NCBI GenBank assembly: GCA_903877135.1
Contig: CAIRCN010000006.1
Location: 124,001 to 188,000 of the forward strand
Source of the DNA: an uncultured Opitutia bacterium
GTDB lineage: Bacteria; Verrucomicrobiota; Verrucomicrobiia; Opitutales; Opitutaceae
Direction: 5' to 3'
Length of the DNA: 64,000 bases
Shown in pieces: positions 36,703 through 56,428 of the stretch. Below the pieces are notes generated by a model. That model saw nothing but the letters and a program-made list of their open reading frames with translations, was not told the DNA's origin and made no database searches. The position numbers and the translations under genes are program-made. The stretch's first letter is position 1. Every line of letters begins with the position of its first letter.

Positions 36703-36940
36703 CGCACAGGGCCAAAGCAAACGTTGAGGATAAGCAATAATCCTTTGCGGTTCAGCTGTTCATTAATGGTGCGGAGGCCATGGAGTTCTGTCAATCAGTT
36801 CTCTGACAAATGCCCAGGGTGTCCAGAGAACGCAGAACAGTCCCGTGGTGCTAAAGCCGGGTGTGGAGACAAAGCGTTCTACCTGAATTTGTTGAAGCCT
36901 TGTTGACAAACTGGCTGCGCGATCAGCTTCGCGTCCGCCG

Positions 36941-38059
36941 TCAGAACGCCATGCGATTCCAGCCGCGGCGCTCTTTGCTCAACGGCGGGAGGCCGAGGAT
37001 TTCGCGACCGAGATCGACGTAGTAGCGGTAGTTTTCGATCGGCGTGCCATTGGGGATGCGGTGGTCGAGACTGAAGACGCATCCGCCGGAGCTGAGCGCG
37101 GGGACCAGCTTGTATTCGAGCTCGGCGCGGATCGAGGCCTTGTCGCGGCGGATGACGTGCTTGTCGATGCCGCCAAGCATCGAGAGGCGTGTGCCGTAGG
37201 TCTGGCGCACGGCGACGATGTCCATGCCGGCGGCCGGTTCCATCGGGTAGATGCAGTTGAGCCCGCAGTCGAGGAGCGCGGGGATGACAGGGTTGATGTT
37301 GCCGTCGGTGTCCTGCTGGAAAATCCGCGCACCGCGCGCCGACACAAGATCCCAGATGCGGCGGTAGTAGGGCTGGAAGCATTCCGCGATCTGCGCGGGG
37401 CCGACCATCGGGCCGGATTTGCCGGCGAAATCCTCGTGCACGGAGAGCTGGTCGATGCAGAGCTTGGCGCTGATCGGCTCGAGCACGCGGAAGGTCGTGT
37501 CGGAAACCGTGGCGAGGATGTCGGCCATGAGCTCGGGCTGATCGTAGTAGGCGAGGCACGCGCCCTCCTCGCCCATGAGCTCGCGCGGGATGTCGAACGC
37601 GCCGGGCATGTAGGCGACGACGAGCGCGCCGTCGGCCTGCGCGCGGCGCGCGGCCTCGACCTCGTCCCACTTGATACGGTCGGGCGTGAAGGTGAAGAAG
37701 TGTTTCACGCTCAGCCAGTCGTCCATCGTCTGCACCGGAAAATCCATCGGCAGCGGGATGGTGGCGGTTTTCTTGAGCAACTTCATCGTGCGCCCGAGAT
37801 AATCGCGCTGCACGAGCTCCTCGTCGTTCTCGCTGAGCGTGACGGACGGCGGACCGAGGCCGTTGGTGTAGCCGCCGCAGAAGACGTTGGGCACGTAGTC
37901 CCAGTCGAAGGCGTTCATGCCGATCTCGTCCTCGGTCGCGCCCTGCGCGCGCCACTCGTCGGCAAGGCCCACGAGCGGGCCGAAGAGTTCGGTAAACATC
38001 GGCCGCGGGGCTTGGCCGAAGGTCATGAGGTCGAGGTATTGTTCGCGATGGAAGCGCAT
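36941..38059 (-). CDS. URO-D superfamily methyltransferase-like protein 1
   Basis: 372 aa. The uroporphyrinogen-decarboxylase/MtaA TIM-barrel fold is recognised by DWDYVPNVFCGGY, LAYYDQPELMADIL, FQPYYRRIWDLVSARGARIF and, at the active site, QQDTDGN (residues 248-254) with the closing VFSLDHRIPNGTPIENYRYY. The HxC zinc site of MtaA/CmuA is replaced by DTDG. It is last in the leftward operon, 6 bp after the next gene. The family transfers methyl groups to or from corrinoid proteins; its substrate is unknown. Confidence 0.8.
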   Translation of the reverse strand: MRFHREQYLDLMTFGQAPRPMFTELFGPLVGLADEWRAQGATEDEIGMNAFDWDYVPNVFCGGYTNGLGPPSVTLSENDEELVQRDYLGRTMKLLKKTATIPLPMDFPVQTMDDWLSVKHFFTFTPDRIKWDEVEAARRAQADGALVVAYMPGAFDIPRELMGEEGACLAYYDQPELMADILATVSDTTFRVLEPISAKLCIDQLSVHEDFAGKSGPMVGPAQIAECFQPYYRRIWDLVSARGARIFQQDTDGNINPVIPALLDCGLNCIYPMEPAAGMDIVAVRQTYGTRLSMLGGIDKHVIRRDKASIRAELEYKLVPALSSGGCVFSLDHRIPNGTPIENYRYYVDLGREILGLPPLSKERRGWNRMAF

Positions 38060-38065
38060 AGGATT

Positions 38066-39112
38066 TCAGCGGTGCCAGTGGGCCTTCACATAGGCGCGAT
38101 ACTGGTCGAGCATGGGAGCGGGGATGTTGGCGGGAAGATGGTTGCCGACGGCGAGCATGACGCCGCGGCAGGTGCGAGCGAGGTCCAGTGTGCGGTCGAG
38201 GCCAGCGCGGACGGTTTCCCAACTGCCGAACGTGAGGTCGCGGCAGTCAACGGCGCTGCCGGCGAGCATGGTTGTCTGGCCGAAGCGCGCGACCATCTCC
38301 GCAAAATCCATCACCGGCTCGAAGATCAGCCCGTCGGCGCCGGCCGCCACGATGTCGCCGGCGAATTCGCGGAAGTCTCCGTCGGAGCAGAAGAGCACTT
38401 TCTTGCCGGCGGCGTGCAGCGATTTCCACAGCTCGGCGTACCGCGGGATGATGTGGGCGCGGTAGATGTCGGGCCGCATGAATGCGCCCGCGGTCCACAC
38501 AAAATCGTCGTGCTGGATGATCGCCTCGGTGCTCGTCTGCGCCCACGCGTCCATGTGAAACTTCGTGCGGCGAAAAAAACTGTCCCAGACGGGCTCCATG
38601 CGATCGGGCTCGGCGGCGGCCTCGAGCAGCATGTCCCAGCCAAAGGCCTGGATCGCGCCCGAGACGATGGTCTTGTAGTAGCCGCCGGGGCAGAGCTGGT
38701 CGGGGAAATCGCCGCGTTTCTGCGTCAACCACGCCTCGTATGCGGCGACCTGCTCGGCCATGGTGGGCAGCCCGTATTCCTTCACCGCGTCGAACGCCCA
38801 AACCTCCTCGGGCACCTCGAACAGACAGTGGTTCGGTTTGCGCAGGTCGCTGCCGTCGGAGGCGTATTCCGCGTGGCCCATGTCGGTATTGCGGCCGAAT
38901 TTTCCCCAGTCGCCGCGCAAGCCGTCTTCCACGGTCCAGAGAAAGTCGATGCCCCAGTGTGCGTAGAGATCGCGCAGGCTCGCCTGTGTGTCGGGGTTGG
39001 GACCGGTTGGGCCGCGGACGCCAAACGGGTGGTATTCCAAACTGTATTCCGTGTGCGCGAAGCGCTCCACCGGTTTCAACGCGATGGTGTCGAGGGCGAG
39101 CTGGCGGCTCAT
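38066..39112 (-). CDS. URO-D superfamily methyltransferase-like protein 2
   Basis: 348 aa. LEYHPFGVRGPT near the N-terminus and IIPRYAELWKSLHAAGKKVLFCSDGD (C242, D244, D246) show the URO-D barrel; a further Cys lies in SAVDCRDLTFG and the closing loop is AVGNHLPANIPAPML. The HxC motif is replaced by FCSDGD. The N-terminal ~90 residues carry a long insertion absent from several neighbours. It lies 19 bp downstream of the next paralogue in the same operon. Confidence 0.78.
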   Translation of the reverse strand: MSRQLALDTIALKPVERFAHTEYSLEYHPFGVRGPTGPNPDTQASLRDLYAHWGIDFLWTVEDGLRGDWGKFGRNTDMGHAEYASDGSDLRKPNHCLFEVPEEVWAFDAVKEYGLPTMAEQVAAYEAWLTQKRGDFPDQLCPGGYYKTIVSGAIQAFGWDMLLEAAAEPDRMEPVWDSFFRRTKFHMDAWAQTSTEAIIQHDDFVWTAGAFMRPDIYRAHIIPRYAELWKSLHAAGKKVLFCSDGDFREFAGDIVAAGADGLIFEPVMDFAEMVARFGQTTMLAGSAVDCRDLTFGSWETVRAGLDRTLDLARTCRGVMLAVGNHLPANIPAPMLDQYRAYVKAHWHR

Positions 39113-39131
39113 GTGGAAATGTTAGCAAAAA

Positions 39132-40259
39132 TCAAAAAGCCTCACCGCGCAGCAGTTGGTGTTTGCGGCGCATGTAGTGCTCAAAGTTGGCGAGCGACAC
39201 GTCGGGCGGCACGAGGTGGTCCACAGAGGGAATGAAACCACCTTCGGCGATCAGCGGCCGGAACGTGCGCAGGTGCGTGTCGATGGCGGCAAAATCCTTC
39301 GCCAGCTCGCGCTTGTCCACACAGCCCCAGAGGCGCAGGTCGCGGCCGAACTTTTTGCGGATCGCGATCGGATCCATGTCGGAGGCGCGCTCGAACGGAT
39401 AGACAGCGTCAACCCCCGCCTCCATGAAGTGAGGGAGGACGAGTTCGCAGTTGCCGTCGGTGTCAATGATCACCCAGCGCACACCGTGGGACTTGAAGAA
39501 AGCGACCAGGCGCTTCAGCTCCGGCAGAATGAACTCACGGTAGGTGTTGGGGCTGAGCAACGGACCGTTTTTCATGCTCAGGTCCTCGTTGATGAAGACG
39601 TAGTCGGGCTTGACGCCGCTCTCGAGCAGCGGGCGCGTGGTCTCGATGGTGAAGTCGGTGATGAACTCCATCATCTCGTGCATCATCGCGGGCTCGTCAT
39701 ACCAGGCGTAGCTGAGGTTTTCGGTGCCCATCCACTCGCGGGCGCGCCAGTAGTAGCCGAGGATGGCGCAGTTGCGGCCGAGGATGAGCGGGTGTTGGCG
39801 CAGGCCCCAGCCGGGCAGGAGAAACTGCTCCCAATACGCCGGGTAACGGCAGGGCGAGGACGGACGGAAGCGTTTTTTCAGCTCCTGGAAATCCGCCGGC
39901 GTGGAGACGGGGAAACTGATGTATTCGTTCATGCTGGCGCGCATGCCCCCGGCCATGCCGGTGATGAGTGCCTTAGAGACCACGCCGTTGGTGCCGAGGA
40001 TGATCTCGGTGTCCCCGTCGCGGCTGAGCACTTTCTCCACGTAGGCCGGGACCATGTCGGTGCGCACGTCGATATATTCGCGTGGATCCATGTCCCAGCG
40101 GGGGTCGCCCACAAACCAGTCCCAATGCATGTCGTCGACCGGCAGACCCTCGTCACGCCAGCGATCCTTAGTCTGGACCCAGACGCCGACCTCGTGGTTG
40201 GGCACGCGATCAACGGACTGGTAATTCATGCAGGCATGGAAGCGTTCAAGAGGGGTCAT
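39132..40259 (-). CDS. URO-D superfamily methyltransferase-like protein 3
   Basis: 375 aa from the ATG at 40259 (MTPLERFHACMNYQSVDRVP, the standard family start). DLSMKNGPLLSPNTYREFILPELKRL is the central barrel; the active-site strand is VIIDTDGN (266-270), followed by LWGCVDKREL and SVDHLVPPDVSLANFEHYM. It shares the DTDG/VDH pattern with protein 1, so the two probably form a subfamily. It lies 23 bp from the next gene in the operon. Confidence 0.82.
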   Translation of the reverse strand: MTPLERFHACMNYQSVDRVPNHEVGVWVQTKDRWRDEGLPVDDMHWDWFVGDPRWDMDPREYIDVRTDMVPAYVEKVLSRDGDTEIILGTNGVVSKALITGMAGGMRASMNEYISFPVSTPADFQELKKRFRPSSPCRYPAYWEQFLLPGWGLRQHPLILGRNCAILGYYWRAREWMGTENLSYAWYDEPAMMHEMMEFITDFTIETTRPLLESGVKPDYVFINEDLSMKNGPLLSPNTYREFILPELKRLVAFFKSHGVRWVIIDTDGNCELVLPHFMEAGVDAVYPFERASDMDPIAIRKKFGRDLRLWGCVDKRELAKDFAAIDTHLRTFRPLIAEGGFIPSVDHLVPPDVSLANFEHYMRRKHQLLRGEAF

Positions 40260-40282
40260 GGAAAATGGAAGTGAGATGAGTT

Positions 40283-41446
40283 TCAGTAGGTGCAACGCTT
40301 CGCCTCGTCGGCGAACGCCTCGAGCAGGTCGGGGCGCGCGTCAAAGAAGTGGTCGGACGGGCAGAGGATGTAGCCGCCGCCCGCGCCGGCTTCGCGGAAA
40401 CAGCGGCGCACCTCGGCGCGCGTCTCCTCTGGCGTGCTGGTGGTGAAAAAGCGATTCTGGTCGAAGCCGCCGATGAAACAGACCTTGTCGCCGATGCGGC
40501 GCTTGGCTTCGGCCAGGTTCACGTCGCCGCCCATCGCGGCGGGCGTGAAGGTTTCCAGAGCGTGCGAGCCGAGCGTGACGAGCCGCTCGAGAATCGGCAT
40601 CATGCCGCCGCAAGTGTGGTAGACGACGCATTGGCCGGCGGCTCGTGCATGCGCGATCACGTCGCGGTCGTAGGGCGCGACGAACTCGTCGAACACTTTT
40701 GGGGAGATCACAGTGGAAGACGCGTCGCCGCCGCCGTGTTCGATGAGGTCGAAGCGCGCACCTTTCATCGAGTCGACGAAGCGGACTTTGCGGTCGCGCA
40801 GGATGCCGAGGAATTTGTGCACCCACGCCGGGTCGTCGAAGGTCTCCAAAATCATCTCCTCGACGCCGAAGAGCACGCAGGCATCCTGCCAGCAGCCGGG
40901 CTGGCCGTAGAGGTCGAAGCAGTTCACGCAGCTGCGGATGAACGTGCCTTCGCCGTAGTGGTTGACCCAGTGGTTGACCTTGGCGACGTCGCAGAGCGGC
41001 TGCACGGCGAATTCGGCGATGAGGTCGATGTCGGATTTTTCCTTGATGAGGCGCTCGGAAACCCAGCCGGTGTAGTCGTTGCTCTGCAGGACCATCGTCA
41101 GGGTCTTGTGCGGCGTGGCGATGTAGTAGCGCGTGGTCTGGTATTCCTGGCCGGGAATTTCCTCCTGAGCGATGCGCCACGTCGGCGAGCAGATGCGGTC
41201 CACGCCGAGGAAGCCAGGCGTATAGGCCGGATCGACGTAGGCGCCCTGCGAAGGATCGGGCCGGTGCGCCTGCAGCCAGAAAACCGGATCGAGCCCGAAG
41301 CGGGCGAAAAATTCGTCATTGGACGCGCCCGCCAGATATTTCTTCAGGTAGTAGGGCATGACGTGGTGCGTCGTCACTGGGAGCCGGTCCGTAGGCCGGT
41401 GCTCGACGGCGGCAATCATGCGTTGCTTGGGGGTCATGGTATTCAT
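40283..41446 (-). CDS. URO-D superfamily protein 4 with HxC...C zinc motif
   Basis: 387 aa from the ATG at 41446. The start MTPKQRMIAAVEHRPTDRLPV is typical. H277-T-C279-G in VVYHTCGGMMPILE and C362 in GGYILCPSDHF reproduce the H-x-C-Xn-C zinc site of MtaA/MtbA/CmuA methyltransferases, which activates a thiol methyl acceptor. Hence this is one of the few paralogues here expected to bind zinc. It is first of four leftward genes and diverges from protein 5 across ~90 bp. Confidence 0.85.
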   Translation of the reverse strand: MNTMTPKQRMIAAVEHRPTDRLPVTTHHVMPYYLKKYLAGASNDEFFARFGLDPVFWLQAHRPDPSQGAYVDPAYTPGFLGVDRICSPTWRIAQEEIPGQEYQTTRYYIATPHKTLTMVLQSNDYTGWVSERLIKEKSDIDLIAEFAVQPLCDVAKVNHWVNHYGEGTFIRSCVNCFDLYGQPGCWQDACVLFGVEEMILETFDDPAWVHKFLGILRDRKVRFVDSMKGARFDLIEHGGGDASSTVISPKVFDEFVAPYDRDVIAHARAAGQCVVYHTCGGMMPILERLVTLGSHALETFTPAAMGGDVNLAEAKRRIGDKVCFIGGFDQNRFFTTSTPEETRAEVRRCFREAGAGGGYILCPSDHFFDARPDLLEAFADEAKRCTY

Positions 41447-41538
41447 GGGCAATAAATGCGCAGGGGGCGCGGCGAATTTTCAGAGGCACGCCGCGATGCG
41501 GAGTTGATTCCGTGGGACGTGCCACACATAGGTGCGTG

Positions 41539-42564
41539 ATGACTTCGATCGAACGCGTGCGCCGCACCATCCGCGGCGAAACAGTGGACCACCTGCCGGC
41601 GCAGCCGATGGGGATGATGTTTTCCGCGAAGCACGCGGGCATCCCCTTCATCGACTACACGAAGGATGGCCGGAAGATGGCCGAGGCGCAGCTGAAGTTT
41701 GCCGAGGACTTTGGCATCGACTGTCTGCTTACCTGCTCCGACCCCGCGCGTGAGGTGATGGATATCGCCGGCGAGGGCAGCGTGGACTGGTTCACCGACC
41801 AAGGGCCGGCAATCAACGAGGAGCGCGCGGCGCTCGCCGACAAGACGCGCCTGAAAACCTTCAAGCTCCCCGACCCGCTCGGCGGCGGCCGCATGCACGA
41901 CCGCGTGAAGTCCATCGAAATCATGCGCCGCGAGGCCGGCCCCGACCTGTCGATCGTCGGCTGGATCGAGGGGCCGCTCGCGCTCGCCGCGGAGCTGCGC
42001 GGTGTGAACACCATCATGCTCGATTTCGGCGACGACCCGGAGTTCGCGCGCGACCTGCTGCGGTTCTGCGCCGACGTGGCGATTGCCTACGCCCCCGCGC
42101 AAATCGCCGCCGGCGCCGACACGATGGGCATGAGCGACGCCGCCGCCAGCCTGATCGGACCGGCGCTCTACGAGGAATTTCTCTGGCCCGAGCAAATGCG
42201 CGTGCTGCAGACGCTGCAGCGGCAGTTTCCCGACGTGCTGCGCCGGCTGCACATGTGCGGCCGCACCGACTCGCTCGCGGTGAAGATGGGCGAGCTTCCG
42301 GTGGATATTTACGAGATCGATTTCCCCGCGGACTTGCAGACTGTGCGCAACCGCCTCGGGCCCGACAAGGTGATAGCGGGCAACGTCTCGACGATCACTG
42401 ACCTGATGCAGGGCACGCCCGAGCAGGTTTACGAGGCCTGCCGGCGCTGCCACCAGATTTGCGGGCGCTACCATGTCGTGAGCGCGGGCTGCGAGATGTC
42501 GCCACGAACGCCGCCGGAAAACCTGCGCGCGATGATGGCCTACGCCCGCGATCACAAGCCGTAA
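41539..42564 (+). CDS. URO-D superfamily protein 5, canonical MtaA/CmuA-type
   Basis: 341 aa from the ATG at 41539. This is the paralogue closest to classical corrinoid methyltransferases: LSIVGWIEGPLALAAELRG, GADTMGMSDAAASLIGPALYEEFLWPEQ, H238-M-C240-G and C318 in VVSAGCEMSPRTPPENL. These supply the complete zinc site and the family's C-terminal SPxTPPENL tail. Likely role: methyl transfer between the cluster's corrinoid protein and a thiol or other acceptor. It is transcribed rightward, opposite to its two neighbours. Confidence 0.88.
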   Translation: MTSIERVRRTIRGETVDHLPAQPMGMMFSAKHAGIPFIDYTKDGRKMAEAQLKFAEDFGIDCLLTCSDPAREVMDIAGEGSVDWFTDQGPAINEERAALADKTRLKTFKLPDPLGGGRMHDRVKSIEIMRREAGPDLSIVGWIEGPLALAAELRGVNTIMLDFGDDPEFARDLLRFCADVAIAYAPAQIAAGADTMGMSDAAASLIGPALYEEFLWPEQMRVLQTLQRQFPDVLRRLHMCGRTDSLAVKMGELPVDIYEIDFPADLQTVRNRLGPDKVIAGNVSTITDLMQGTPEQVYEACRRCHQICGRYHVVSAGCEMSPRTPPENLRAMMAYARDHKP

Positions 42565-42597
42565 GACTGCGGTTGAGCGGGAGGCAGGCATCGGGGA

Positions 42598-43872
42598 TCA
42601 GGCGCGGCCCTCCACGAGTTCCATCGCCATCGCGGCCCATTCTGTGACGCGCTGCGGCTGGCCGGCGATGGTGGAGATGTCCTTCATCACGATCTCGACG
42701 TGCCCGCCCTTGGTGCAGTCGAGCATGTGGCGGAGTTCGTCGCGGGCTTTGGCGAGGTTCCACCCGTCGGTGGCGAAGCAGGCGGGGTTGGGTTTGTAGC
42801 TGAAAACGTAGTCCGAGCCGACCGCCGCCGCGCCGCGCTCCATGTGGATGCGGTAGTTCATCGAGACCTTGCGCAGGTTCGGGACGCGCCGTAGGATGTC
42901 CATCTTGGTGTCGAGCACCTCACAGCAGCCGTAGTAAACGAGGCCCCAGCGGGCGAGCCACGGGAAGTCGTGCCGCAGGGCGAATTCCCAGTGCATCTCC
43001 TGCGAGACCTCGGTGAAAATCTGGGCGTTGGAGCAGCCCCAGAGGTGCTCGGGCGTCGGGTGCGCGGGGTTGAAGCCGGCGCGCGGTAGCTCGCTCGTGT
43101 AGCAGTAGGCGCCGGAGCCGACGCGACAGTTGAGGTTGTTCCGCGCGAGGAGATTCAGCGCGACGAACTGGTCGAGCTCATTCAGGTAGCACTCGACGAG
43201 GCGGGCGACGCAGGCGTTGATCACGTCGGGTTGCTCAATGAGGTCGGTCAGCGCCTCCTGCACGCCATACCACATCACGAGGTTGTCCCACGGAGTGAAC
43301 CAGAAATTGTCGCGACCCTGTTCGAGGACCGGGATGATGTCGCCGATCGCCGCCGTCATCGCGGAAAAACGCGCCGCCGTGTCCTCGCGGTCGACGGTCA
43401 CGATGGGGTCCTTGATCTTGTGGAGGTCCGCCATCGAAGAAATCTGAGGCTCGTAGTGCTGCGACGAGATGCCGGCGCCGCCGGTGATGTCGAGCCGCTC
43501 GCCCTGCCGGAGGATGCCGAAGCCCGTGCTCTGCCAGGCGATCGGGCAGGGAATGTAGTCGTTGAAAATCATGTCCACTGGCATGTGGCGCCACTGGTAA
43601 AGCTGGCGGCGCATCTCCAACTCCACGCCGCGCGCCCAGGGCGCCCGGCAATGCAGCTTAAGCTCGTCTCTCGTCTCGCTGAACTCGTGCCACGGCAGTT
43701 CCGTGATCCACACCATCGGGCGCTCGGTGCGCAGTTCGTTCATCTTTCCCCAGAGGCGCGCCTTCTCGCGGTGCACGGGCAGCGCGGCGATGGCGGCGAA
43801 CTGTTCCGCCAACGGGCGCAGGACCTCTCGGTCCTGCGGTAACAACTGGATGGCAGAAGGGGTAGTGTTCAT
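42598..43872 (-). CDS. URO-D-like protein 6 with GCCE motif
   Basis: 424 aa, longer than the other paralogues. Recognisable URO-D-like features are LYQWRHMPVDMIFNDYIPCP, a barrel around FWFTPWDNLVMWYGVQEALTDLI and FALRHDFPWLARWGLVYYGCCEVLD, where adjacent C316-C317-E318 occupy the place of HxC. KPNPACFATDGWNLAKAR lies near the C-terminus. The cysteine pair suggests a different metal ligand set. It is 4 bp from the upstream gene in the leftward operon behind RACE. The substrate is unknown. Confidence 0.72.
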   Translation of the reverse strand: MNTTPSAIQLLPQDREVLRPLAEQFAAIAALPVHREKARLWGKMNELRTERPMVWITELPWHEFSETRDELKLHCRAPWARGVELEMRRQLYQWRHMPVDMIFNDYIPCPIAWQSTGFGILRQGERLDITGGAGISSQHYEPQISSMADLHKIKDPIVTVDREDTAARFSAMTAAIGDIIPVLEQGRDNFWFTPWDNLVMWYGVQEALTDLIEQPDVINACVARLVECYLNELDQFVALNLLARNNLNCRVGSGAYCYTSELPRAGFNPAHPTPEHLWGCSNAQIFTEVSQEMHWEFALRHDFPWLARWGLVYYGCCEVLDTKMDILRRVPNLRKVSMNYRIHMERGAAAVGSDYVFSYKPNPACFATDGWNLAKARDELRHMLDCTKGGHVEIVMKDISTIAGQPQRVTEWAAMAMELVEGRA

Positions 43873-43876
43873 GGCT

Positions 43877-44890: not shown

Positions 44891-44955
44891 GGTGAAAAAG
44901 GAGGTTGATCAGGTTCGTCGGCTCGGGGGAGTGGCCTACAAGCGTTCGCGCTAAG

Positions 44956-47497: not shown

Positions 47498-47523
47498 ACG
47501 CCGCCTCAACCGGCGGTGTGGCC

Positions 47524-48609: not shown

Positions 48610-48623
48610 CCTCCTTCTCCCGC

Positions 48624-49754
48624 ATGTCCTCCGCCCCCATCAAACCCTTCCGCCCCAAATGGCGCGGCACTCTCACCGACCGCGAGCGGTTCAACCGGCA
48701 ACTGCACCATCAGCCCGTGGACCGCTGCTTCAACATGGAGTTCGGCTACTGGGACGACAACTTCAAGGTCTGGCCGATGTTTCGTGACCACGGCATCACG
48801 AACAACAACGACGCCGACATTTTCCTCAACTTCGACCGCACCGGCACCGTCTGGTCGCATTGGATGTTTCCGACCTTTCCCTACGAGGAAATCTCCCGCA
48901 CCGCCAACACCCGCATCCTGCGCAACGGCGACGGCCTGATCGCCGAGGTGCCGCTCGACGGCCACGATACCATCCCGCATTACCTCGAGGCCACGGTCAA
49001 AACCCCTGACGACTGGAAACGCGTCAAGGAGGAGCGCTTCAACCGCGACCACCTCGACCGTAAGCCCGACATCGCCGCCATCCTCCGCGACCATCCCAAC
49101 GACCGCGACTATCCGCTCGGTGCCTGGTGCGGCTCGATGATCGGCAAGGCCCGCGACATGCTCACCGTCGAGGGTCTCGCCTACGCCTGCTACGACTATC
49201 CCGAGATGGTCGAGGACATCGTCGAGACCTCCTGTGTGCTCGTGGAAGACTTCCTCGACGCCGTCCTCCCGCACGTGAAATTCGACTACGGCGCCGGCTG
49301 GGAAGACATCTGTTACAAGAGCGGCCCGCTCGTCTCAGTCGGATTTTTCCGCGACGTCGTCGTGCCGCGCTACCAGCGCATCAGCAAAAAGCTGCGCGCC
49401 CACGGCATCGACATCTGGTGGATCGACTGCGACGGCGATGTGCGCCCGCTCATTCCCCATTTCCTCGCGGGTGGCGTGAACACGATGTTCCCCTGGGAAG
49501 TCAACGGTTCCGGCCACCCCGGCGAGTCGCTCGAGAAATGGGGCCCCGAACTGCGCATCATGGGCGGCGTGGACAAGATGATCCTCGGCAAGGGCCGCAC
49601 CGAAATCCGCGAATTCGTCCACTCGCTCGTACCCTACGTGGCGCGCGGCGGCTTCATTCCGTTCTGCGACCACCGCTGCCCGCCCAACGTCGATCCCGAC
49701 GACTACCTGTATTATCTCAATCTCAAGGAGGAGCTCCTCGGCCTGCGCGGCTGA
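48624..49754 (+). CDS. URO-D superfamily methyltransferase-like protein 9
   Basis: 376 aa from the ATG at 48624. DRERFNRQLHHQPVDRCFNMEFGYWDD opens the protein; DICYKSGPLVSVGFFRDVVVPRYQRI is the central barrel, and the active-site strand is IWWIDCDGDVRPLIPHFL (D268, C269, D270). The end GGFIPFCDHRCPPNVDPDDYLYYL has two cysteines around the DHxxPP loop. It belongs to the DxDG subgroup with proteins 1 and 3 but with Cys in place of Thr. It lies 14 bp after protein 8. Confidence 0.84.
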   Translation: MSSAPIKPFRPKWRGTLTDRERFNRQLHHQPVDRCFNMEFGYWDDNFKVWPMFRDHGITNNNDADIFLNFDRTGTVWSHWMFPTFPYEEISRTANTRILRNGDGLIAEVPLDGHDTIPHYLEATVKTPDDWKRVKEERFNRDHLDRKPDIAAILRDHPNDRDYPLGAWCGSMIGKARDMLTVEGLAYACYDYPEMVEDIVETSCVLVEDFLDAVLPHVKFDYGAGWEDICYKSGPLVSVGFFRDVVVPRYQRISKKLRAHGIDIWWIDCDGDVRPLIPHFLAGGVNTMFPWEVNGSGHPGESLEKWGPELRIMGGVDKMILGKGRTEIREFVHSLVPYVARGGFIPFCDHRCPPNVDPDDYLYYLNLKEELLGLRG

Positions 49755-49804
49755 ACGCGCACGGCCCCTCGACCCAGCGTCATGCTCCCTAAAGTTTTCC
49801 CCGC

Positions 49805-51064
49805 ATGACCTCCCGCGAAAAAGTCCGCCGCGCGCTCGCGCACCAACCCGGCCCCGTGGCCGTCGATTTCGGCAGCACCATGCTCACGGGCATGCATGTG
49901 AGCTGCGTCGCCGCCCTGCGCGCCCACTACGGCCTGCCCCGGCACCCGGTTAAGGTGTGTGAACCCTACCAGATGCTCGGTGAGATCGAGGACGACCTCG
50001 CGCGCCTCCTCGGCTCCGACTGCGTCGCGGCCAACGGCCGCGGCACGATGTTCGGTTTTCCCAACGAGGGCTGGCACGAGTGGCGCGCGCCCTGGGGACA
50101 GGTCATGCTCGTGCCGGCCGGTTTCAACCCGCGTGCAGAATCCTCCGGCGACGTCTATCTTTTCCCTGAGGGCGACAAAACCGTCGCGCCCAGCGGCCAC
50201 ATGCCGGCCAGCGGATATTTCTTCGACGCCATCGTGCGCCAGGAACCGTTCGAGGAGGACCAGCTCGACGTCGCCGACAACTGCGAGGAGTTTAAACTTC
50301 TCAGCCCCGCCGACCTCGACCACTGGCGGTGCGAGTTCGCCCGCGTGCGCGGCGAGGATCGCGCCATCGTCAGCGCGATGGGCGGCACGGGCTTTGGCGA
50401 CATCGCCCTCGTGCCCGCGGCCTTCCTCAAGCACCCGAAAGGCATCCGCGACGTTGGCGAATGGTATATCTCCCTCGTCGAGCGCCGCGATTTCGTCCAC
50501 CGGATCTTCGACTACCAGTGCGAGGTCGCGCTGAAAAACCTAGCCGCCTACGCCGCCCTCGCCGGCGACACCATCGACGTGTTCATCGTCTGCGGCACCG
50601 ATTTCGGCACGCAAAGCTCGCAGTTCTGCTCGCCCGAGACGTTCGACGAACTCTTCGCGCCTTACTACCGTCGGATCAACGACTGGGTCCACCACCACAC
50701 CACCTGGAAGACCTTCAAGCACTCCTGTGGCGCCGTCCGCCCTCTGATCGACCGTTTCATCGACGTCGGCTTCGACATCCTCAACCCCGTGCAGTGCTCC
50801 GCGACCGGCATGGATCCAGTGCAGCTCAAGGCCGATTTCGGCGACCGTATCGTCTTCTGGGGCGGCGGCGTGGACACGCAGCACACCCTGCCCTTCGGCA
50901 CGCCCGCCGAGGTGCGCACGCAGGTCACCGAGCGCCTGCGGGCCTTTTCGCCCAACGGCGGATTCGTGTTCAACACCATCCACAACATCCAGGCCCGCAC
51001 GCCCCCAGCCAACATCGTGGCCATGATCGACGCCATCGCCGATTTCAACCGCACCGGCAACTGA
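49805..51064 (+). CDS. URO-D superfamily protein 10 with HxC motif but no second cysteine
   Basis: 419 aa. MTSREKVRRALAHQPGPVAVDFGST is a family start. H306-S-C308-G in WKTFKHSCGAVRPLIDRF matches the first half of the zinc motif, but the later ligand position reads VFNTIHNIQARTPPANIVAM, with His instead of Cys. GTDFGTQSSQFCSPETFDELFAPYYRRI is the conserved barrel segment. An insertion of ~60 residues (about 100-180) makes it longer than its neighbours. It lies 50 bp after protein 9. Confidence 0.85.
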   Translation: MTSREKVRRALAHQPGPVAVDFGSTMLTGMHVSCVAALRAHYGLPRHPVKVCEPYQMLGEIEDDLARLLGSDCVAANGRGTMFGFPNEGWHEWRAPWGQVMLVPAGFNPRAESSGDVYLFPEGDKTVAPSGHMPASGYFFDAIVRQEPFEEDQLDVADNCEEFKLLSPADLDHWRCEFARVRGEDRAIVSAMGGTGFGDIALVPAAFLKHPKGIRDVGEWYISLVERRDFVHRIFDYQCEVALKNLAAYAALAGDTIDVFIVCGTDFGTQSSQFCSPETFDELFAPYYRRINDWVHHHTTWKTFKHSCGAVRPLIDRFIDVGFDILNPVQCSATGMDPVQLKADFGDRIVFWGGGVDTQHTLPFGTPAEVRTQVTERLRAFSPNGGFVFNTIHNIQARTPPANIVAMIDAIADFNRTGN

Positions 51065-51070
51065 CCCCTC

Positions 51071-52156
51071 ATGTCTCCTCGCAACTATTATTTTTCCCGC
51101 GACACCGCCAGCGCGCGCTACGAAGCCTGGTGGAACGCCGGCCGTCTGGACCGTTCTCCGGTGACACTCTATGTCGAGTCCAAGAACTCGCCACCCATGC
51201 CGCGCTCCACGCACGCCACCCTGCGCGAGCGTTGGCTCGACGTTGAATTTCAGGTCGAGTCAGCCCTTGTCGGCCTGGAGAACAACCCCTGCCTCGGCGA
51301 CAGTGTGCCGACGTGGATGCCTAACGTCGGCCCCGATCTCACTTCGACGCTCTTTGGTGCCGAACTCATCTTCGGCGAGAACACAAGCTGGTGCCAGCAT
51401 ACCATTCCCGAGATAACTGACTGGGAACGCTTCATCGATACCCCGCCCAATTTCACCAACATCTACTGGAAGGCAATCGAGGAGATGATCGATCTCGCCG
51501 CTGAGCGTTTTGCCGGGCGCTTCTACGTTTCTATGCCCGACTTGCACGGCACCTTCGACATACTCGCCGGCCTGCGCGGCCCCGAAAATCTCTGTCTCGA
51601 CATCATGGATGATCCTGAGCTTGTGCGGCGCGCGGCGCAGCACGCGACTCGGGCCTATATCGAGGGCTACCGGCGGCTTTACCAGCGTCTGACTGCGTTC
51701 GGCCAGCCCAGCACCACGTGGTGTTCCTACTTGCACGACGGCACGGCCTATGTGCCGAGTTGCGATTTCTGGTGCCTCGTCTCCAAGGAAATTGGGGAGG
51801 ACCTCATCCGTCCCACCATCGAGCTGGAAATGGTGCCGTTGGAACGAACCATCTTTCACCTCGATGGCCCGCAAGCTCTGCATCACCTCGACGTCACGCT
51901 GCGCTTGCCACGCCTAAACGCCCTCCAGTGGGTTTATGGCGCCGGCCATGGCCGTGCGATGGACTGGCTGCATGTCTATCGCCGCAGTCTCGAAGCCGGG
52001 AAAGCCGTGCAGATTCTCGCGGAGGATGCCAACGACGCCCTCGGCGTCCTGCGCGAACTCGGCCCCGCCGGCCTGTGGCTCACGGTCTGTTCGCCGTTTT
52101 CCAACATCGACCGCGCCACCGAGTTTCTCGACTCCGTCCATTCTCTCTCGTCGTGA
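51071..52156 (+). CDS. Divergent URO-D superfamily protein 11
   Basis: 361 aa. YVPSCDFWCLVSKEIGEDLIRPTIELEMVPLERTIFHLDGPQALHHLD (H263, D265) shows a degenerate active-site strand; the end LWLTVCSPFSNIDRATEFL keeps one Cys. The N-terminus (NYYFSRDTASARYEAWWNAG) resembles other small-subgroup URO-D-like proteins that replace the usual RERV start. Among the twelve it departs most from the family. It is 6 bp after protein 10 and its stop overlaps the next GTG start. Confidence 0.72.
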   Translation: MSPRNYYFSRDTASARYEAWWNAGRLDRSPVTLYVESKNSPPMPRSTHATLRERWLDVEFQVESALVGLENNPCLGDSVPTWMPNVGPDLTSTLFGAELIFGENTSWCQHTIPEITDWERFIDTPPNFTNIYWKAIEEMIDLAAERFAGRFYVSMPDLHGTFDILAGLRGPENLCLDIMDDPELVRRAAQHATRAYIEGYRRLYQRLTAFGQPSTTWCSYLHDGTAYVPSCDFWCLVSKEIGEDLIRPTIELEMVPLERTIFHLDGPQALHHLDVTLRLPRLNALQWVYGAGHGRAMDWLHVYRRSLEAGKAVQILAEDANDALGVLRELGPAGLWLTVCSPFSNIDRATEFLDSVHSLSS

Positions 52157-53049
52157 ACCCACGCACCACCGCCCTCCGTCAGGAACTCGCCCGCCGGCCG
52201 CTCGTCTGCGACGGCGCCACCGGCACGCAGCTGCAGCTCCAGGGCCTCGCGCCCGGCGCCTGCGGCGAACTCTGGTGCGTCGAGCAACCCGACCGCGTGC
52301 AACAGGTGCACCGAAACTACCTCGCCGCCGGCGCCGATCTGCTCACGACCAATTCCTTTGGCGGCACGTCCTACGTGCTCGCCGGCCACGGCGCCGGAGC
52401 ACGCGTCCGCGAAATCAACGTCGCCGCCGCCCGCCTCGCCCGTGCCATCGCCGGCGACCGTGCATGGGTGCTCGGCGACGTCGGCCCGTTCGGCGGCATG
52501 CTCGAGCCATTCGGCGACGCGCAGCACGACGAGGTCATCATGGCGTTTTGCGAGCAGGCCGCCGCGCTCCTTGAAGGCGGCGCCGACGCCATCTTGATCG
52601 AGACCATGTCCGATCCCGTCGAGGCCGCGCTGGCCGTGGCAGCGGCCAAGTCCGTCGGGGCGGAATTTATTTTCGCCACCTACGCTTTCCAGCAATCGGC
52701 CAGCGGCTATCGCACGATGATGGGCACCACCGCCGCCGAAGCCGTCGCCGCCGCGATCGACGCCGGCGCGGATGCCGTCGGCGCCAATTGCGGCACCGAA
52801 CTCTCCCTCGCCGATTACGAAAAACTCACCACCGAACTCGTCACCGCCGCGGGGGCCATGCCGGTCATCGTGCAGCCCAACGCCGGCTCGCCCAAGCTCA
52901 TCGACGGCAAAATCCATTACGCCACCACTCCCGCCGACTTCGCCGCGACCGCCGCGCGTTTCAGTGCCGCCGGCGCCCGCATCGTCGGTGGCTGCTGCGG
53001 CAGCACGCCCGCGCACATCGCCGCGATGGCTGCGCTCCTCAAGCGATGA
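52153..53049 (+). CDS. Homocysteine S-methyltransferase family protein
   Basis: 298 aa from the GTG at 52153, which overlaps the preceding stop (GTGA). RPLVCDGATGTQLQLQGL, AGADLLTTNSFGGTSYVL, the zinc Cys213 in VGANCGTEL and Cys281-Cys282 in RIVGGCCGSTPAHIAAM are the BHMT/MetH N-domain signatures. It transfers a methyl group to homocysteine from a methyl donor that could be the methylated corrinoid protein. The next gene overlaps it by 4 bp (ATGA). Being embedded in the corrinoid operon argues against a purely biosynthetic role. Confidence 0.9.
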   Translation: MNPRTTALRQELARRPLVCDGATGTQLQLQGLAPGACGELWCVEQPDRVQQVHRNYLAAGADLLTTNSFGGTSYVLAGHGAGARVREINVAAARLARAIAGDRAWVLGDVGPFGGMLEPFGDAQHDEVIMAFCEQAAALLEGGADAILIETMSDPVEAALAVAAAKSVGAEFIFATYAFQQSASGYRTMMGTTAAEAVAAAIDAGADAVGANCGTELSLADYEKLTTELVTAAGAMPVIVQPNAGSPKLIDGKIHYATTPADFAATAARFSAAGARIVGGCCGSTPAHIAAMAALLKR

Positions 53050-54140
53050 ACGCCCGCGAGAATTTCCACGCGATGATGGCGGGCACCGGGGCCGAGTGGC
53101 TGCCACTCAACGTGCCTGTCACGCCCCCGGTCGCCGACCTCATCGAGGAGCGCACCGGTGTGCGCAACTCGGAATTGGCCTTCGAAACCGACTTCGGCTT
53201 CGAGTGGGTCGGCTACAATGAGGATCCGCAGCGCTGGCACGCCGCGCTTACCGACCTCGGCTACAAGTTTCCCGCCGACGTCGAGCTTGGGCCGTTCTGC
53301 ATCGCGCATGTCGCGCCGCCGGCCGGCACAACAGGCAAAGCCTACCACTTCCGCGTCATGCTGCACCCGCTCGAGGTGATCTCCGACGTCGCGCAGCTCG
53401 AAAAACTTCCCTGGCCCGACACCGCCGACTCCAGACACTACGCCGCCCTCCAACGTAAGATGCAGCAGGTCCACACGCGCGGCAAAGTCGCCTTCGCCGG
53501 CATGGAGTGCACAACCTTCGAGCTCTCCTGGTATGCCCGCGGCATGGATAACCTGTTCCAGGACCTCGCCGAGGGCAACGACATCGCCGACTGGCTGCTC
53601 GACTATTTCACCGAGCGCTCCTGCAACGTCGGCCGCGAATTCGCCCGCGCCGGCATCGACATCATCGGCCTCGGCGACGACGTCGGCATGCAGACCGGCA
53701 TGCTCCTTTCCGTCCCGATGTGGCGGCAGCACCTCAAGCCCCGCCTCGCCAAAGTCATCGCCGCCATCCGCGAAGCCTCCGGCGGTCGCAAGGTCTGGGT
53801 GCACTATCACTCCGACGGCGACATCATGCCGATCGTCGAGGATCTCATCGAGGTCGGCGTGGACATCCTCAACCCCGTGCAGCCCGAGTGCATGGACGCC
53901 GCCGAACTCACCCGCCGCCACGCCCGCCAACTCGGCCTCAGCGGCATGGTCGGCACGCAGACGACGATGCCCTTCGGCACGACCGACGACGTCCGCCGGC
54001 GCGTCCGCGAGATCGCCGCGCTACACCGCGACCACGGCGCCCGCGTGATGATCGCGCCCACCCACGTCCTCGAGCCCGATGTGCCATTCGAAAACATCCT
54101 CGCCCTCGTCGAGGAGACGAAGTCGATCCGCTTCCGCTGA
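53046..54140 (+). CDS. URO-D superfamily methyltransferase-like protein 12
   Basis: 364 aa. MNARENFHAMMAGTGAEWLPLNVPV start; GIDIIGLGDDVGMQTGMLLSVPMWRQHLKPRLAKVI is the barrel core; the active-site strand is VWVHYHSDGDIMPIVEDL (H255, D257) and the end IAPTHVLEPDVPFENIL. HSDG replaces HxCG, and the cysteine of the later loop is replaced by His. It is translationally coupled to the homocysteine methyltransferase by a 4-bp overlap and closes the rightward operon. Confidence 0.85.
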   Translation: MNARENFHAMMAGTGAEWLPLNVPVTPPVADLIEERTGVRNSELAFETDFGFEWVGYNEDPQRWHAALTDLGYKFPADVELGPFCIAHVAPPAGTTGKAYHFRVMLHPLEVISDVAQLEKLPWPDTADSRHYAALQRKMQQVHTRGKVAFAGMECTTFELSWYARGMDNLFQDLAEGNDIADWLLDYFTERSCNVGREFARAGIDIIGLGDDVGMQTGMLLSVPMWRQHLKPRLAKVIAAIREASGGRKVWVHYHSDGDIMPIVEDLIEVGVDILNPVQPECMDAAELTRRHARQLGLSGMVGTQTTMPFGTTDDVRRRVREIAALHRDHGARVMIAPTHVLEPDVPFENILALVEETKSIRFR

Positions 54141-54148
54141 GTGAAGCG

Positions 54149-56068
54149 CTATTTACCCAGTCCCGCGCGCAGCACCTCGACCGTTCCTGCGCCGAGCGCG
54201 GTGGACATCAAATAAACTCCCGCCCAGCCTTCTCGCATGAGACCGCGGATCTGCTCAGCAGCGAGTTCCTGTCCTAATTTCGTCTGATCGGCGACCTGCG
54301 GCAGCGCGGCAAATTTCGCCAGCGTCGCATCCGGCACCACTACGCCGGGCACCTGCGCCATGCGCTGTGCGTGCTCGAAACTTGTCAGCACCATCACACC
54401 GATCAGACAGCGCACCTTGCTGCGAAACGGCTCCAGTGCAGCGAGCGGCTCGGGGCGAAACGCCGGCTGCGTCATGATGTAGTCCGCGCCCGCGTCGATC
54501 TTCTGCCGCAGGCGGGCGAGCTCGCGTTGCAGGTCGTGCGCCTCCAGCTCCACGCCGCTGCCGATCGTGAAATGTGTGCGCGGGTCGGCCTGCTTGCCGA
54601 GCGGCACGCCGCCGAAATCCACGCCGGCGTTGAGGCACGAGTGCGTCAGACGGATCATCGCCACCGAGTCGAGGTCGAACACCGCCGTCGAGTTCGGGTA
54701 GGTCGGAGACATTTTCGGCGGGTCGCCGGTGACGAAGAGCACGTTGTGGATGCGGTTGGCGTGGTGGCCGACGAGCCGGCCCTGGATGCCCATCACGTTG
54801 AGGTCGCGGCCGGTGAAATGCGGGATCAGCTCCATCGCATCACCTGTTGCGGCGGTCCAACCAAGGCGCTCGCGCACCAAGTGAATGAAATCGCCCGGCG
54901 GAATCAGCGGGATACCACGCGAGCCGTCTGTGAAATCCACCGCATCGACGAGTCCGCTCGCCGCGAGCTCGCTGATGAAGTCGATCTTGCGCTGGATGAC
55001 CTTGGCGTCGGTGCCGCGCGGCGGCAGCGCCTCGATGCTGACGACGAACTCACCGTCCTTGAGCTTGCGCGAGAGCGGGCCGTTGCGGCGTTTCTCCGCG
55101 TCGCCGATGGGCGGGCGCGCGCTGGCCGGCACCGGCGCGGTAGTGACGAGCCGGGCGCCGCCGCGCGATTGCAGGTAATTGTGCATCTCCCCGATGTGCG
55201 GCGGGTGCATCTCGCAGCAGCCGCCGAGCAACCGCACGCCGCGGTCGGCGAGGCTGCGCGCGAGCTTGCCCGCGGCCTCGGGGTTGACGGTCGTCATCAG
55301 CCGGCTGCCGATGCGCTGGAAACCGCCGGCGTTGGGCATCACGGAGAGGAGCAGCGCGCCGGAGCAGACTGGCGCGGTGTCGCGCACGGCATCGACAAAC
55401 GCGCTGGCGTCCCACGGCGCGCAGCAATTCACGCCGGCCACCGGCACGCCGAGCGCGGCCATGCGACCGACGAACGCCACCGGGTCGGGCTCGAGGCTCT
55501 GGCCATCGCCGCCGGCGCGCAACGTCACCTCCGCAATCACGGGCGGCAGCCCGGGAATCGTCCGGATGAGGCCGATGAGTAGCTCAAGCTGCGTCAGCGA
55601 GTGAAACGTTTCCAACAGCAACGCGTCCGCGCCGCCCGCCGCGATCGCCTCGAGCTGGGCGTGGTAGCAGTCCGCCACCTCATCCGCAGTCGTGAGCGTC
55701 GCCGCGGTGGGGCCGACCGAGGCCAGCACGAAGAACGGCCCGGACTCGCGCTGCTGCGCCTGGAATTTCGCGATGGCCTCGCGCGCGAGCTTCACGCCCT
55801 CGCGGTTCAGTGCAGAGGCGAGGTTTTCCAAACCAAACTGCCGCAACTGCGCGCGGTTGGCGCCAAAGGTGTTGGTTTTGAGGCAGCGCGCGCCGGCTGC
55901 GAGATAGGCGAGGTGGACGTTGCGGATCGCGTCGGGCTGCCCGACGTTGAACTCCTCGTAAACGTGATTGGTCTCCGAAAGCCGCCCCGTGAGTTTGAAC
56001 AAATACGAGCCCATCGCGCCATCGGTGAGGAGCGGCTGCGCTTCGAGCGTGGTCAGAAAGTCGGCCAT
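54149..56068 (-). CDS. Bifunctional homocysteine S-methyltransferase / methylenetetrahydrofolate reductase
   Basis: 639 aa from the ATG at 56068. Residues ~1-300 are a homocysteine S-methyltransferase domain (QPLLTDGAMGSYLF, TNTFGANRAQL, zinc cysteines in GVNCCAPWD and LLGGCCEMHPPHI). Residues ~340-630 are MetF: FVVSIEALPPRG, DFTDGSRGIPLIPP, HFTGRDLNVMGIQG, NVLFVTGDPPKMSP and ADYIMTQPAF. The fusion is known from other bacteria (YitJ-type). In the cluster it could oxidise methyl-THF to methylene-THF or make methionine. It faces the rightward operon, with stops 8 bp apart. Confidence 0.93.
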   Translation of the reverse strand: MADFLTTLEAQPLLTDGAMGSYLFKLTGRLSETNHVYEEFNVGQPDAIRNVHLAYLAAGARCLKTNTFGANRAQLRQFGLENLASALNREGVKLAREAIAKFQAQQRESGPFFVLASVGPTAATLTTADEVADCYHAQLEAIAAGGADALLLETFHSLTQLELLIGLIRTIPGLPPVIAEVTLRAGGDGQSLEPDPVAFVGRMAALGVPVAGVNCCAPWDASAFVDAVRDTAPVCSGALLLSVMPNAGGFQRIGSRLMTTVNPEAAGKLARSLADRGVRLLGGCCEMHPPHIGEMHNYLQSRGGARLVTTAPVPASARPPIGDAEKRRNGPLSRKLKDGEFVVSIEALPPRGTDAKVIQRKIDFISELAASGLVDAVDFTDGSRGIPLIPPGDFIHLVRERLGWTAATGDAMELIPHFTGRDLNVMGIQGRLVGHHANRIHNVLFVTGDPPKMSPTYPNSTAVFDLDSVAMIRLTHSCLNAGVDFGGVPLGKQADPRTHFTIGSGVELEAHDLQRELARLRQKIDAGADYIMTQPAFRPEPLAALEPFRSKVRCLIGVMVLTSFEHAQRMAQVPGVVVPDATLAKFAALPQVADQTKLGQELAAEQIRGLMREGWAGVYLMSTALGAGTVEVLRAGLGK

Positions 56069-56392: not shown

Positions 56393-56428
56393 CCCAACGC
56401 CCTGCCTTTTCCGCCACACCGATTCCGC

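Follow-up and report, generated by a model that had tools for sequence, protein, structure and literature searches.

The locus studied here raises the question of why a bacterium should keep a dozen uroporphyrinogen decarboxylase-like (UroD-like) genes around a single corrinoid protein. It lies in a 64,000-nucleotide stretch of DNA (the window) from an uncultured member of the Opitutaceae, whose draft genome of 4.23 Mb in 87 contigs is 97.3% complete. The original prediction described, within 19 kb, twelve methyltransferase genes of the UroD superfamily, one corrinoid protein, one activase of the RACE type and two homocysteine methyltransferase genes, and proposed a hub in which many substrate-specific enzymes load one corrinoid protein. 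A modular hub of this kind, which collects methyl groups, is probably the best explanation of the data presented below.

Gene content and layout of the block

The gene map, together with Pfam and fold searches, bore out the predicted inventory (Table 1). Between 36941 and 56068 the order is M1-M7, RACE, corrinoid protein, M8-M11, homocysteine methyltransferase (HcyMT), M12 and an HcyMT-MTHFR fusion, with the twelve UroD-fold genes spanning 36941-54140 and every gene of the block being an open frame. The clustering is not a matter of chance, since 12 of the genome's UroD-like proteins, which number at least 45, are encoded within 17 kb of 4.23 Mb and an identical order of all twelve, RACE and the corrinoid protein was found in seven of the 80 related loci in which the same layout was sought.

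Table 1. Features of the block and its right border, with positions in the window; "site" gives the three residues read as the site triad.
Feature	Position	Strand	Evidence
M1, UroD-fold methyltransferase-like, site D-D-H	36941..38059	-	PF01208 43.5 bits; triad
M2, UroD-fold methyltransferase-like, site C-D-N	38066..39112	-	PF01208 33.6 bits; triad
M3, UroD-fold methyltransferase-like, site D-D-H	39132..40259	-	PF01208 65.4 bits; triad
M4, UroD-fold methyltransferase-like, site H-C-D	40283..41446	-	PF01208 82.6 bits; triad
M5, site H-C-C, nearest MtaA/MtbA/CmuA	41536..42564	+	PF01208 196 bits; 4ay7; TIGR01463
M6, divergent, UroD fold by prediction	42598..43872	-	without Pfam match; PDB fold matches
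M7, UroD-fold methyltransferase-like, site H-D-(C by eye; gap in alignment)	43877..44890	-	PF01208 38.6 bits; triad
RACE, putative ATP-dependent reductive activase of corrinoid protein	44956..46590	-	PF14574, PF17651; RACo 3zyy E 3e-80
Corrinoid protein, putative methyl carrier	46859..47497	+	PF02310+PF02607; DLHDIG; 1y80 E 7e-54
M8, UroD-fold methyltransferase-like, site H-D-H	47518..48609	+	PF01208 53.3 bits; triad
M9, UroD-fold methyltransferase-like, site D-D-H	48624..49754	+	PF01208 33 bits; triad
M10, UroD-fold methyltransferase-like, site H-C-H	49805..51064	+	PF01208 56.8 bits; triad
M11, divergent, UroD fold by prediction, site H-D-?	51071..52156	+	without Pfam match; fold search
Homocysteine methyltransferase (HcyMT), likely methyl acceptor enzyme	52150..53049	+	PF02574 221 bits; C214, C282, C283
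M12, UroD-fold methyltransferase-like, site H-D-H	53046..54140	+	PF01208 74.3 bits; triad
Homocysteine methyltransferase-MTHFR fusion	54149..56068	-	PF02574+PF02219; NF006396 400 bits, cut-off 453
Probable fhs C-terminus remnant (formate-H4folate ligase)	56183..56449	-	tblastn 49% over 96 alignment columns vs intact C4 copy

A ferredoxin-NADP-reductase-like gene at 56429-57247 had a counterpart in none of the 80 loci and is therefore counted outside the system. No riboswitch was detected between 28000 and 60000 at Rfam gathering scores. The intergenic region between RACE and the corrinoid gene yielded no clear common motif in an alignment of 10 of the 25 stretches from the loci, most of the excluded ones being longer and containing a DUF1638 gene. 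In the window this gap is free of a DUF1638 gene, and a search of the window and 26 further stretches of the genome returned nothing beyond a chance-level match (E 0.007) inside M2.

Family, fold and site residues of the UroD-like proteins

The curated PF01208 cut-off was passed by ten of the twelve hub proteins; M6 and M11, for which no Pfam family matched at E<=1, belong to the UroD superfamily by predicted fold only. AlphaFold models of the two (mean pLDDT 70.9 for M6 and 92.2 for M11) had their best PDB matches among uroporphyrinogen decarboxylases and in the methyltransferase of M. mazei (4ay7/4ay8), with E values of 1.3e-9 (UroD) and 2.6e-9 (4ay7) for M11 and of 7.5e-5 (UroD) and 1.1e-3 (4ay8) for M6, whose model is middling and whose match is loose (TM-score 0.34-0.50 among the UroD/methyltransferase-family matches). 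A PDB search with M8 as the sole query matched nothing, and a profile of the M1/M3/M9 type gave weak UroD matches only, CdmB not being among them.

Grouping with HemE-like decarboxylases had been named beforehand as a result that would speak against the prediction. A true uroporphyrinogen decarboxylase (HemE) identity was ruled out by the HemE signature MRQAGR, which the genome's own true HemE carries and which occurs in 0/45 UroD-like proteins, and by the scores against the HemE family TIGR01464, the highest of which was 65.6 bits (M5) against a cut-off of 303. The predicted membership in the MtaA/CmuA family failed in the strict sense, as all twelve remained under the family cut-offs. CmuA itself bears a corrinoid domain within the same chain. 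The nearest protein is M5, which resembles CmuA, MtaA and MtbA in its best scores (TIGR01463 155.4 bits, cut-off 235.4) and in its thiol-type H-C-C site, the sole one in the hub; its HxC and later Cys align with those of 4ay7 (E 7.7e-20).

The site triads were read with the ligand rule of Kountz and Balskus (PMC10418091, partial text). The thiol-type His-Cys-Cys triad is found in 7/45 UroD-like proteins of the genome, and Asp occupies the second position in 21/45. The expected first two ligands are missing in 4/45 (M6 and one member each on contigs C10, C20 and C74), so that not every member need be a methyltransferase. As far as sequence can tell, the twelve probably remove methyl groups from compounds, and the triads predict many oxygen-bound methyl groups and an H-C-C minority acting on sulfur or selenium; of the O-, N- and S-demethylation originally proposed, the N-linked part received no specific support.

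Conservation and descent of the twelve genes

The adjacent, tightly packed arrangement of the twelve genes, together with a tandem M9 pair in one related locus (L040), would fit a recent tandem duplication that left largely redundant copies. Each hub protein, however, groups with its orthologues from other MAGs (64-92% identity across the seven full loci) and not with its block neighbours, and hub and scattered labels change 11 times on the tree as compared with 10.6 times in shuffles, which renders this origin very improbable. By their sequences, the twelve are separate, old and deep lineages, not a tandem array.

Their depth can also be read in another way, namely that this corrinoid protein serves only part of the twelve, while the rest are UroD-fold proteins recruited to a different chemistry and kept in place by co-regulation. 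The identity to M8 is 14-26% in one alignment, M6 and M11 are without a Pfam match, and site residues are missing from M6 and also from scattered members, for example the one on C10. We nevertheless consider such partial use improbable in view of the strict twelve-gene synteny around RACE and the corrinoid gene, the purifying selection on the block genes (dN/dS <0.4 in 48/48 comparisons) and the expansion of UroD-like proteins, which follows RACE across genomes.

One stand-alone corrinoid protein and one RACE in the genome, and their numbers in relatives

The predicted single DxHxxG corrinoid protein stood up to the search: it combines PF02607 (81 bits) with PF02310 (92 bits), carries DLHDIG at residues 99-104, a motif (D.H..G) kept in 80/80 related carriers, and is the one stand-alone corrinoid protein of the genome. 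Its nearest solved structure, 1y80, is a cobalamin-binding protein from Moorella (PMC3727330, partial text). The adjoining RACE is likewise the single PF14574 match in the genome (219 bits; PF17651 165 bits). Its description as a [2Fe-2S]-ASKHA protein held for the activase domains and for the cysteines C43-x5-C49-x2-C52, less so for the N-terminal Fer2 match, which at 15.1 bits stays under the 21-bit cut-off.

Opposite this pair stand at least 45 UroD-like proteins, 12 in the hub and 33 scattered (39 PF01208 matches, HemE included). Since no other methyltransferase-type corrinoid protein appeared in the genome, the carrier of the hub is most likely also that of the scattered proteins. The draft status means that a second corrinoid protein could be missing from the assembly; the same one-carrier pattern is seen in G016 (100% complete) and G046 (96%, 2 contigs). 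A PF01208 count of at least 20 is reached in 14 genomes; a single strong stand-alone corrinoid protein is present in 12 of these and a pair in the other two. Five genomes with 5-10 UroD matches (G007, G014, G021, G029, G043) contain two or more stand-alone corrinoid matches, so a single carrier is not a family-wide rule. In the 76 genomes compared (our own and 75 relatives), RACE is present in 22/28 with at least two UroD matches as opposed to 1/48 with none or one (Fisher p 1e-12, kinship ignored), and 6/28 of the former are without RACE. No UroD-like gene was found near the carrier in 26/80 loci, in four of them because gene calling failed. An isolate, Geminisphaera colitermitum TAV2 (L063), has relatives of M1 and M9 beside its carrier and 8 PF01208 matches in its genome.

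The ratio of at least 45 proteins to one RACE and one carrier, the synteny and the joint occurrence of UroD-like proteins and RACE thus speak for the proposed hub, as far as genes can, whereas the neighbouring genes provide no substrate theme. In the Pfam tallies (97 proteins of at least 100 aa within two genes of scattered members, and 124 of 149 farther proteins, rows at locus ends left out), no common theme appeared among the 25 commonest neighbour families, and neither did the outer-membrane receptors and sugar enzymes expected beforehand; these were the best 25 of 146 families near and of 177 far, so that single-member families may be hidden. Twenty chosen neighbours belonged to mixed families, including a single GH5 protein in this genome and a single GH20 protein in G046. 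The suggested algal, plant or sugar-derived substrates gain no clear support from them.

Predicted acceptor side

PF02574 was found in both homocysteine methyltransferase genes; no HcyMT was found in L034, L040, L045 and L047. Contig C4 of the same genome encodes a C1 block of MetF-MetV, an AcsE/MtrH-like protein and Fhs. By its PF00809 match (52.7 bits, cut-off 25.5) the AcsE/MtrH-like protein is a homologue of the second methyltransferase, outside the window, and it scores 108 bits with NF005719, under the cut-off of 259. The C1 block and the hub form one continuous stretch in G016, L045 and L047, and in G039 the C1 block is joined to the right end of the hub; the fhs remnant in the window is a probable scar of this block.

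These genes also bear on an alternative in which the block serves primarily in methionine synthesis, its corrinoid protein, HcyMT and RACE forming a split B12-dependent synthase together with a pterin methyltransferase, and the UroD-fold proteins feed this synthase by S- or Se-methyl salvage. Two related loci come close to such a set, L055 being reduced to RACE, DUF1638, corrinoid protein and HcyMT with M3, and L056 to the same four genes with no UroD-like gene found; Phaeobacter makes methionine with a matching set of genes (PMC5764234, partial text), and G039, at 93% completeness, is without a MetH-type PF02607 match. MetH is retained, however, in the source genome, G016 and G046, which means that the methionine route is not essential here; the thiol-type site is confined to the seven members mentioned, and a C1 block with Fhs adjoining the hub in relatives favours use of the methyl carbon. 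A primary role as methionine synthase is therefore unlikely.

Comparison with known systems

The three-component O-demethylases (Mtv, Odm/Vdm, Mto, Cdm) are similar to the hub in their UroD-superfamily donor, small corrinoid protein and activase, and in passing the methyl group to a folate-type carrier, a step that is predicted here from the gene content; they differ in that the H4folate methyltransferase lies outside the block here. In Mto each corrinoid protein is served by two donor methyltransferases (PMC8630106, partial text), whereas 12 adjoin the carrier here and at least 45 occur in the genome. In type 1 mlp clusters (MGC), too, a single corrinoid protein and a single RACE stand beside several UroD-family proteins, and an H4folate methyltransferase gene is not included. 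These clusters, however, typically contain two or three Mlps, whose site is nearly always His-Cys-Cys, and come from obligate anaerobes with little conserved synteny (PMC10418091, partial text). The hub has His-Cys-Cys in 1/12 proteins, which sets it apart from type 1, and a fixed order in seven loci.

In Phaeobacter, mutant fitness supports a split methionine synthase that has RamA-like and DUF1638 proteins as partners (PMC5764234, partial text), and MtgC of Ruegeria is a dual-use carrier (PMC12478193, partial text). In these methionine synthase and glycine betaine demethylase (MtgBCDE) sets, one carrier is common to donor, pterin and homocysteine enzymes, with one pfam06253-type donor as opposed to dozens of UroD-type donors here (PMC12478193, PMC5764234, partial texts). 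Four of the five Mtg-type parts (HcyMT, carrier, pterin, RamA-like and DUF1638 proteins) are present in our genome, and by sequence the hub core appears to match these sets, scaled up. No report of a UroD-type corrinoid hub in Verrucomicrobiota was found among titles and abstract openings of the non-subscription literature, or in the partial text of PMC11264602.

Proposed mechanism and implications

From the observed gene content, fold, genome counts, synteny, selection and site residues we infer a shared carrier, the direction of transfer, the kinds of substrate and the use of two exits. In this modular hub, each UroD-fold protein would bind its own methylated compound, most of them at a metal site, and would transfer the methyl group from it onto the single corrinoid protein at Co(I), a state that RACE would maintain using ATP and a low-potential electron. 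HcyMT would pass the methyl group to homocysteine, yielding methionine, and the AcsE/MtrH-like protein would pass it to H4folate, from which it could reach formate via MTHFR and formate-H4folate ligase. More tentatively, we suggest a genome-wide methyl bus, in which one carrier and one activase may serve at least 45 exchangeable donors whose site chemistry has diversified. The donors would comprise a core of twelve enzymes, kept in fixed order in several Opitutaceae MAGs, and a scattered set that varies; the bus would be built on a split methionine synthase and drained by methionine synthesis and C1 oxidation.

The genome offers a natural set of about 45 sequence-diverse enzymes with one likely common partner and readably varying site residues, which allows substrate specificity and carrier recognition to be studied directly, and Geminisphaera colitermitum TAV2 might be culturable for such tests. 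If the hub operates as proposed, a group of environmental Verrucomicrobiota could demethylate dozens of natural compounds via one B12 protein, which would connect the B12 supply and the C1 metabolism of these bacteria with natural methoxy and methylthio compounds.

Composition of the proposed hub and identity of its UroD-like proteins

The source genome (G000) is a draft of 4.23 Mb in 87 contigs with a completeness of 97.3%. In the window, the genes between 36941 and 56068 follow the order M1 to M7, the reductive activase of corrinoid proteins (RACE), the corrinoid protein (referred to here as the carrier), M8 to M11, a homocysteine methyltransferase (HcyMT), M12 and a homocysteine methyltransferase-MTHFR fusion, and the one corrinoid protein, one RACE and two homocysteine methyltransferase genes that the original prediction placed beside twelve methyltransferases are all present. 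The assignment of all twelve to the URO-D superfamily holds by score for ten, which passed the curated PF01208 cut-off in a Pfam profile search, and by predicted fold only for M6 and M11, which gave no Pfam match at E ≤ 1. The structure models of these two, built from orthologue alignments of 14 and 18 rows, respectively, found UroD structures and a Methanosarcina mazei methyltransferase as best PDB matches in a fold search, M11 with an E-value of 1.3e-9 and a TM-score of about 0.6 (mean pLDDT 92.2), M6 with 7.5e-5, low TM-scores and a middling model (mean pLDDT 70.9).

The genome contains one true HemE (contig C69, 384 bits), whose MRQAGR signature occurs in none of the 45 other UroD-like proteins; the twelve hub proteins are thus not HemE. 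Nor are the twelve strict members of MtaA/CmuA, since M5 reached 155 bits against a cut-off of 235 and the other eleven scored far lower.

The alignment of M5 with the M. mazei methyltransferase 4ay7 covers the HxC and later Cys stretches, which we take to be zinc-binding in that enzyme. His-Cys-Cys occupies the three site columns in 7 of the 45 proteins, the third column being the least certain at such divergence; the first two columns hold His-Cys in 20, Asp in second place in 21 and neither in 4. Within the hub, the sites are H-C-C (M5), H-C-D (M4), H-C-H (M10), D-D-H (M1, M3, M9), H-D-H (M8, M12), C-D-N (M2) and H-D with an uncertain third residue (M7, M11), while that of M6 is ambiguous. 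Kountz and Balskus link a His-Cys-Cys site to S-methyltransferases and carboxylate ligands to O-methyltransferases (PMC10418091), a rule that serves as a guide only, because CdmB is described as functioning without zinc (PMC13222342).

Coordinates of the hub and of related features (window positions unless a locus or contig is named)
Feature	Position	Strand
Hybrid histidine kinase (two receiver domains) and receiver-adenylate cyclase protein, directly left of the hub	32235-36720	-
M1-M12	36941-54140	M1-M4, M6, M7 -; M5, M8-M12 +
RACE	44956-46590	-
Carrier	46859-47497	+
HcyMT	52150-53049	+
Homocysteine methyltransferase-MTHFR fusion	54149-56068	-
Probable remnant of the fhs (formate-H4folate ligase) C-terminus, upstream of the fusion gene	56183-56449	-
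Ferredoxin-NADP-reductase-like gene, right of the hub	56429-57247	+
Four UroD-like genes side by side outside the hub, two with an H-C-C site	C20:227088 to ~231190 (in L111)	
Hub variant without M7, HcyMT and M12	L034:13440-16694	
Tandem duplicate of M9	L040:11771-14039	
Carrier, then nine UroD-like genes	L075:10001-20615	
Locus with LigM/DesA-like gene, contig C10	L115:6265-12059	
DUF1638 gene, example	L036:9071-9829	

Numbers of UroD-like proteins, carriers and activases

PF01208 matches 39 proteins of the genome, HemE included. Adding local profile and protein searches of the window and 25 fetched stretches gives at least 45 methyltransferase-like members, comprising 12 hub proteins and 33 scattered ones, a lower bound because members outside those stretches that lack a Pfam match would escape. 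Opposed to these are one RACE and two PF02607 matches, namely the carrier and a MetH gene on contig C20 with pterin and homocysteine domains beside it. The simplest interpretation of these counts, a putative one, is that all 45 enzymes share a single carrier.

Fourteen genomes have at least 20 PF01208 matches (20 to 55, HemE included): our own, G016, G032, G033, G039, G046, G076, G077, G079-G083 and G087. Exactly one strong stand-alone corrinoid protein was found in 12 of them and two in G032 and G033, with an additional weak match each in G079 (43 bits) and G087 (41 bits). RACE copies were counted for six of the 14: our own, G016, G032, G039 and G046 have one each, and G033, with 7% contamination, has two. 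Some relatives depart from this pattern: G007, G014, G021, G029 and G043 have 5-10 PF01208 matches and at least two stand-alone corrinoid matches each, and G085 has 15 and two. When our genome and 75 relatives (76 in total) were compared, RACE occurred in 22 of the 28 with at least two UroD matches vs 1 of the 48 with at most one (Fisher p 1e-12, ignoring kinship; UroD counts above ~23 are minimum values).

Conservation of the twelve-gene block

Related loci were retrieved with the carrier as query in named genomes, and the best 80 of 174 were compared, the nearest being from Opitutaceae and other Verrucomicrobiota MAGs. The layout sought in other Verrucomicrobiota does recur: seven of these 80 carry all twelve M genes, RACE and the carrier at ≥60% identity in the same order and orientation. 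At least ten UroD-like genes were found in 12/80, at least one in 54/80 and none in 26/80. Many of the loci stop at a contig end, and the gene caller, for which the window served as training set, gave zero genes of any kind in 4 of the 26. Against L031, L042 and L043, 48 gene comparisons gave dN of 0.07-0.29 and dS of 0.37-1.08, with a ratio below 0.4 in all.

In a tree of 71 rows, every hub gene groups with its own orthologues from two other MAGs, and the M1 group also includes one scattered copy; only such shallow joins are reliable, because support is poor at many of the deep forks and several long branches come together. Hub and scattered labels are mixed as in shuffled data (11 label changes, against averages of 10.6 and 10.7 after shuffling). 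The genome of L036 (G078) has 11 PF01208 matches in total and all twelve hub genes; as Pfam overlooks some of the latter, its UroD set is almost the hub alone, with at least one match elsewhere. The twelve-gene core is thus stable and the scattered set variable.

Several variants were observed. A second M1 relative lies at the right end of the L034 hub, together with a CobW and a pterin-binding protein, the M9 copies of L040 share 84 and 76% identity with that of the window, and L075, from a Verrucomicrobiia MAG, differs in gene content and is maybe an independently built hub. The ferredoxin-NADP-reductase-like protein could be an electron source for RACE; its gene was seen in none of the best 80 of 174 loci.

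Probable methyl acceptors and the C10 locus

A block on contig C4 consists of an AraC regulator, a MetF-MetV fusion (PF02219 and PF12225), an AcsE/MtrH-like pterin protein (PF00809; below the NF005719 cut-off, 108 vs 259 bits) and formate-H4folate ligase. In G016, these four genes lie next to M12 and the fusion gene; in G039, together with FolD, they share a contig with the right end of the hub. The hub of L045 and L047 has as neighbours fhs, the pterin protein and a part of MetF-MetV. Another pterin protein (32-35% identity) occurs in L034, L036, L039 and L049, with PF00809 confirmed in all but L039. The C1 block was probably once in the window too, because a stretch resembling the fhs end persists (49% over 96 columns; intact copy on C4). 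HcyMT at ≥60% identity is found in 19 of the best 80 of 174 loci and was not found at L034, L040, L045 and L047. L056 retains RACE, DUF1638, the carrier and a homocysteine methyltransferase, and a UroD-like gene was not found there.

The C10 locus, conserved in G016 (L142) and G039 (L143), encodes a LigM/DesA-like aryl O-demethylase, a MetF-MetV fusion, a UroD-like protein without the site residues, an AraC regulator and an FAA hydrolase. The LigM/DesA-like gene, which scored below the cut-offs of both NF047633 (565 bits vs 800) and NF047885 (513 vs 580), lends indirect support to predicted methoxyaromatic demethylation in this genome.

Relationship to known systems

DUF1638 genes occur in 31 of the best 80 of 174 loci (L036 and 30 others, L031-L094) and, of the 28 copies whose locus also has RACE, 25 lie next to it; neither the window nor 26 fetched stretches of our genome showed one. 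In Phaeobacter inhibens, methionine is made by a homocysteine, a corrinoid and a pterin protein that are separate from each other, and RamA-like and DUF1638 proteins are required, as judged by mutant fitness in aerobic growth (PMC5764234); in Ruegeria pomeroyi the same kind of carrier serves glycine betaine demethylation (PMC12478193). The hub therefore appears similar to these modular sets as well as to O-demethylases; it is set apart by its scale, by the type of its donor enzymes and by its fixed twelve-gene block. With confidence lowered by carrier loci without UroD genes and relatives with several carriers, we still consider it reasonably probable that the genes form a modular methyl-collecting hub, in which many UroD-fold donors would load one predicted carrier that would pass the methyl group on to homocysteine and to H4folate.
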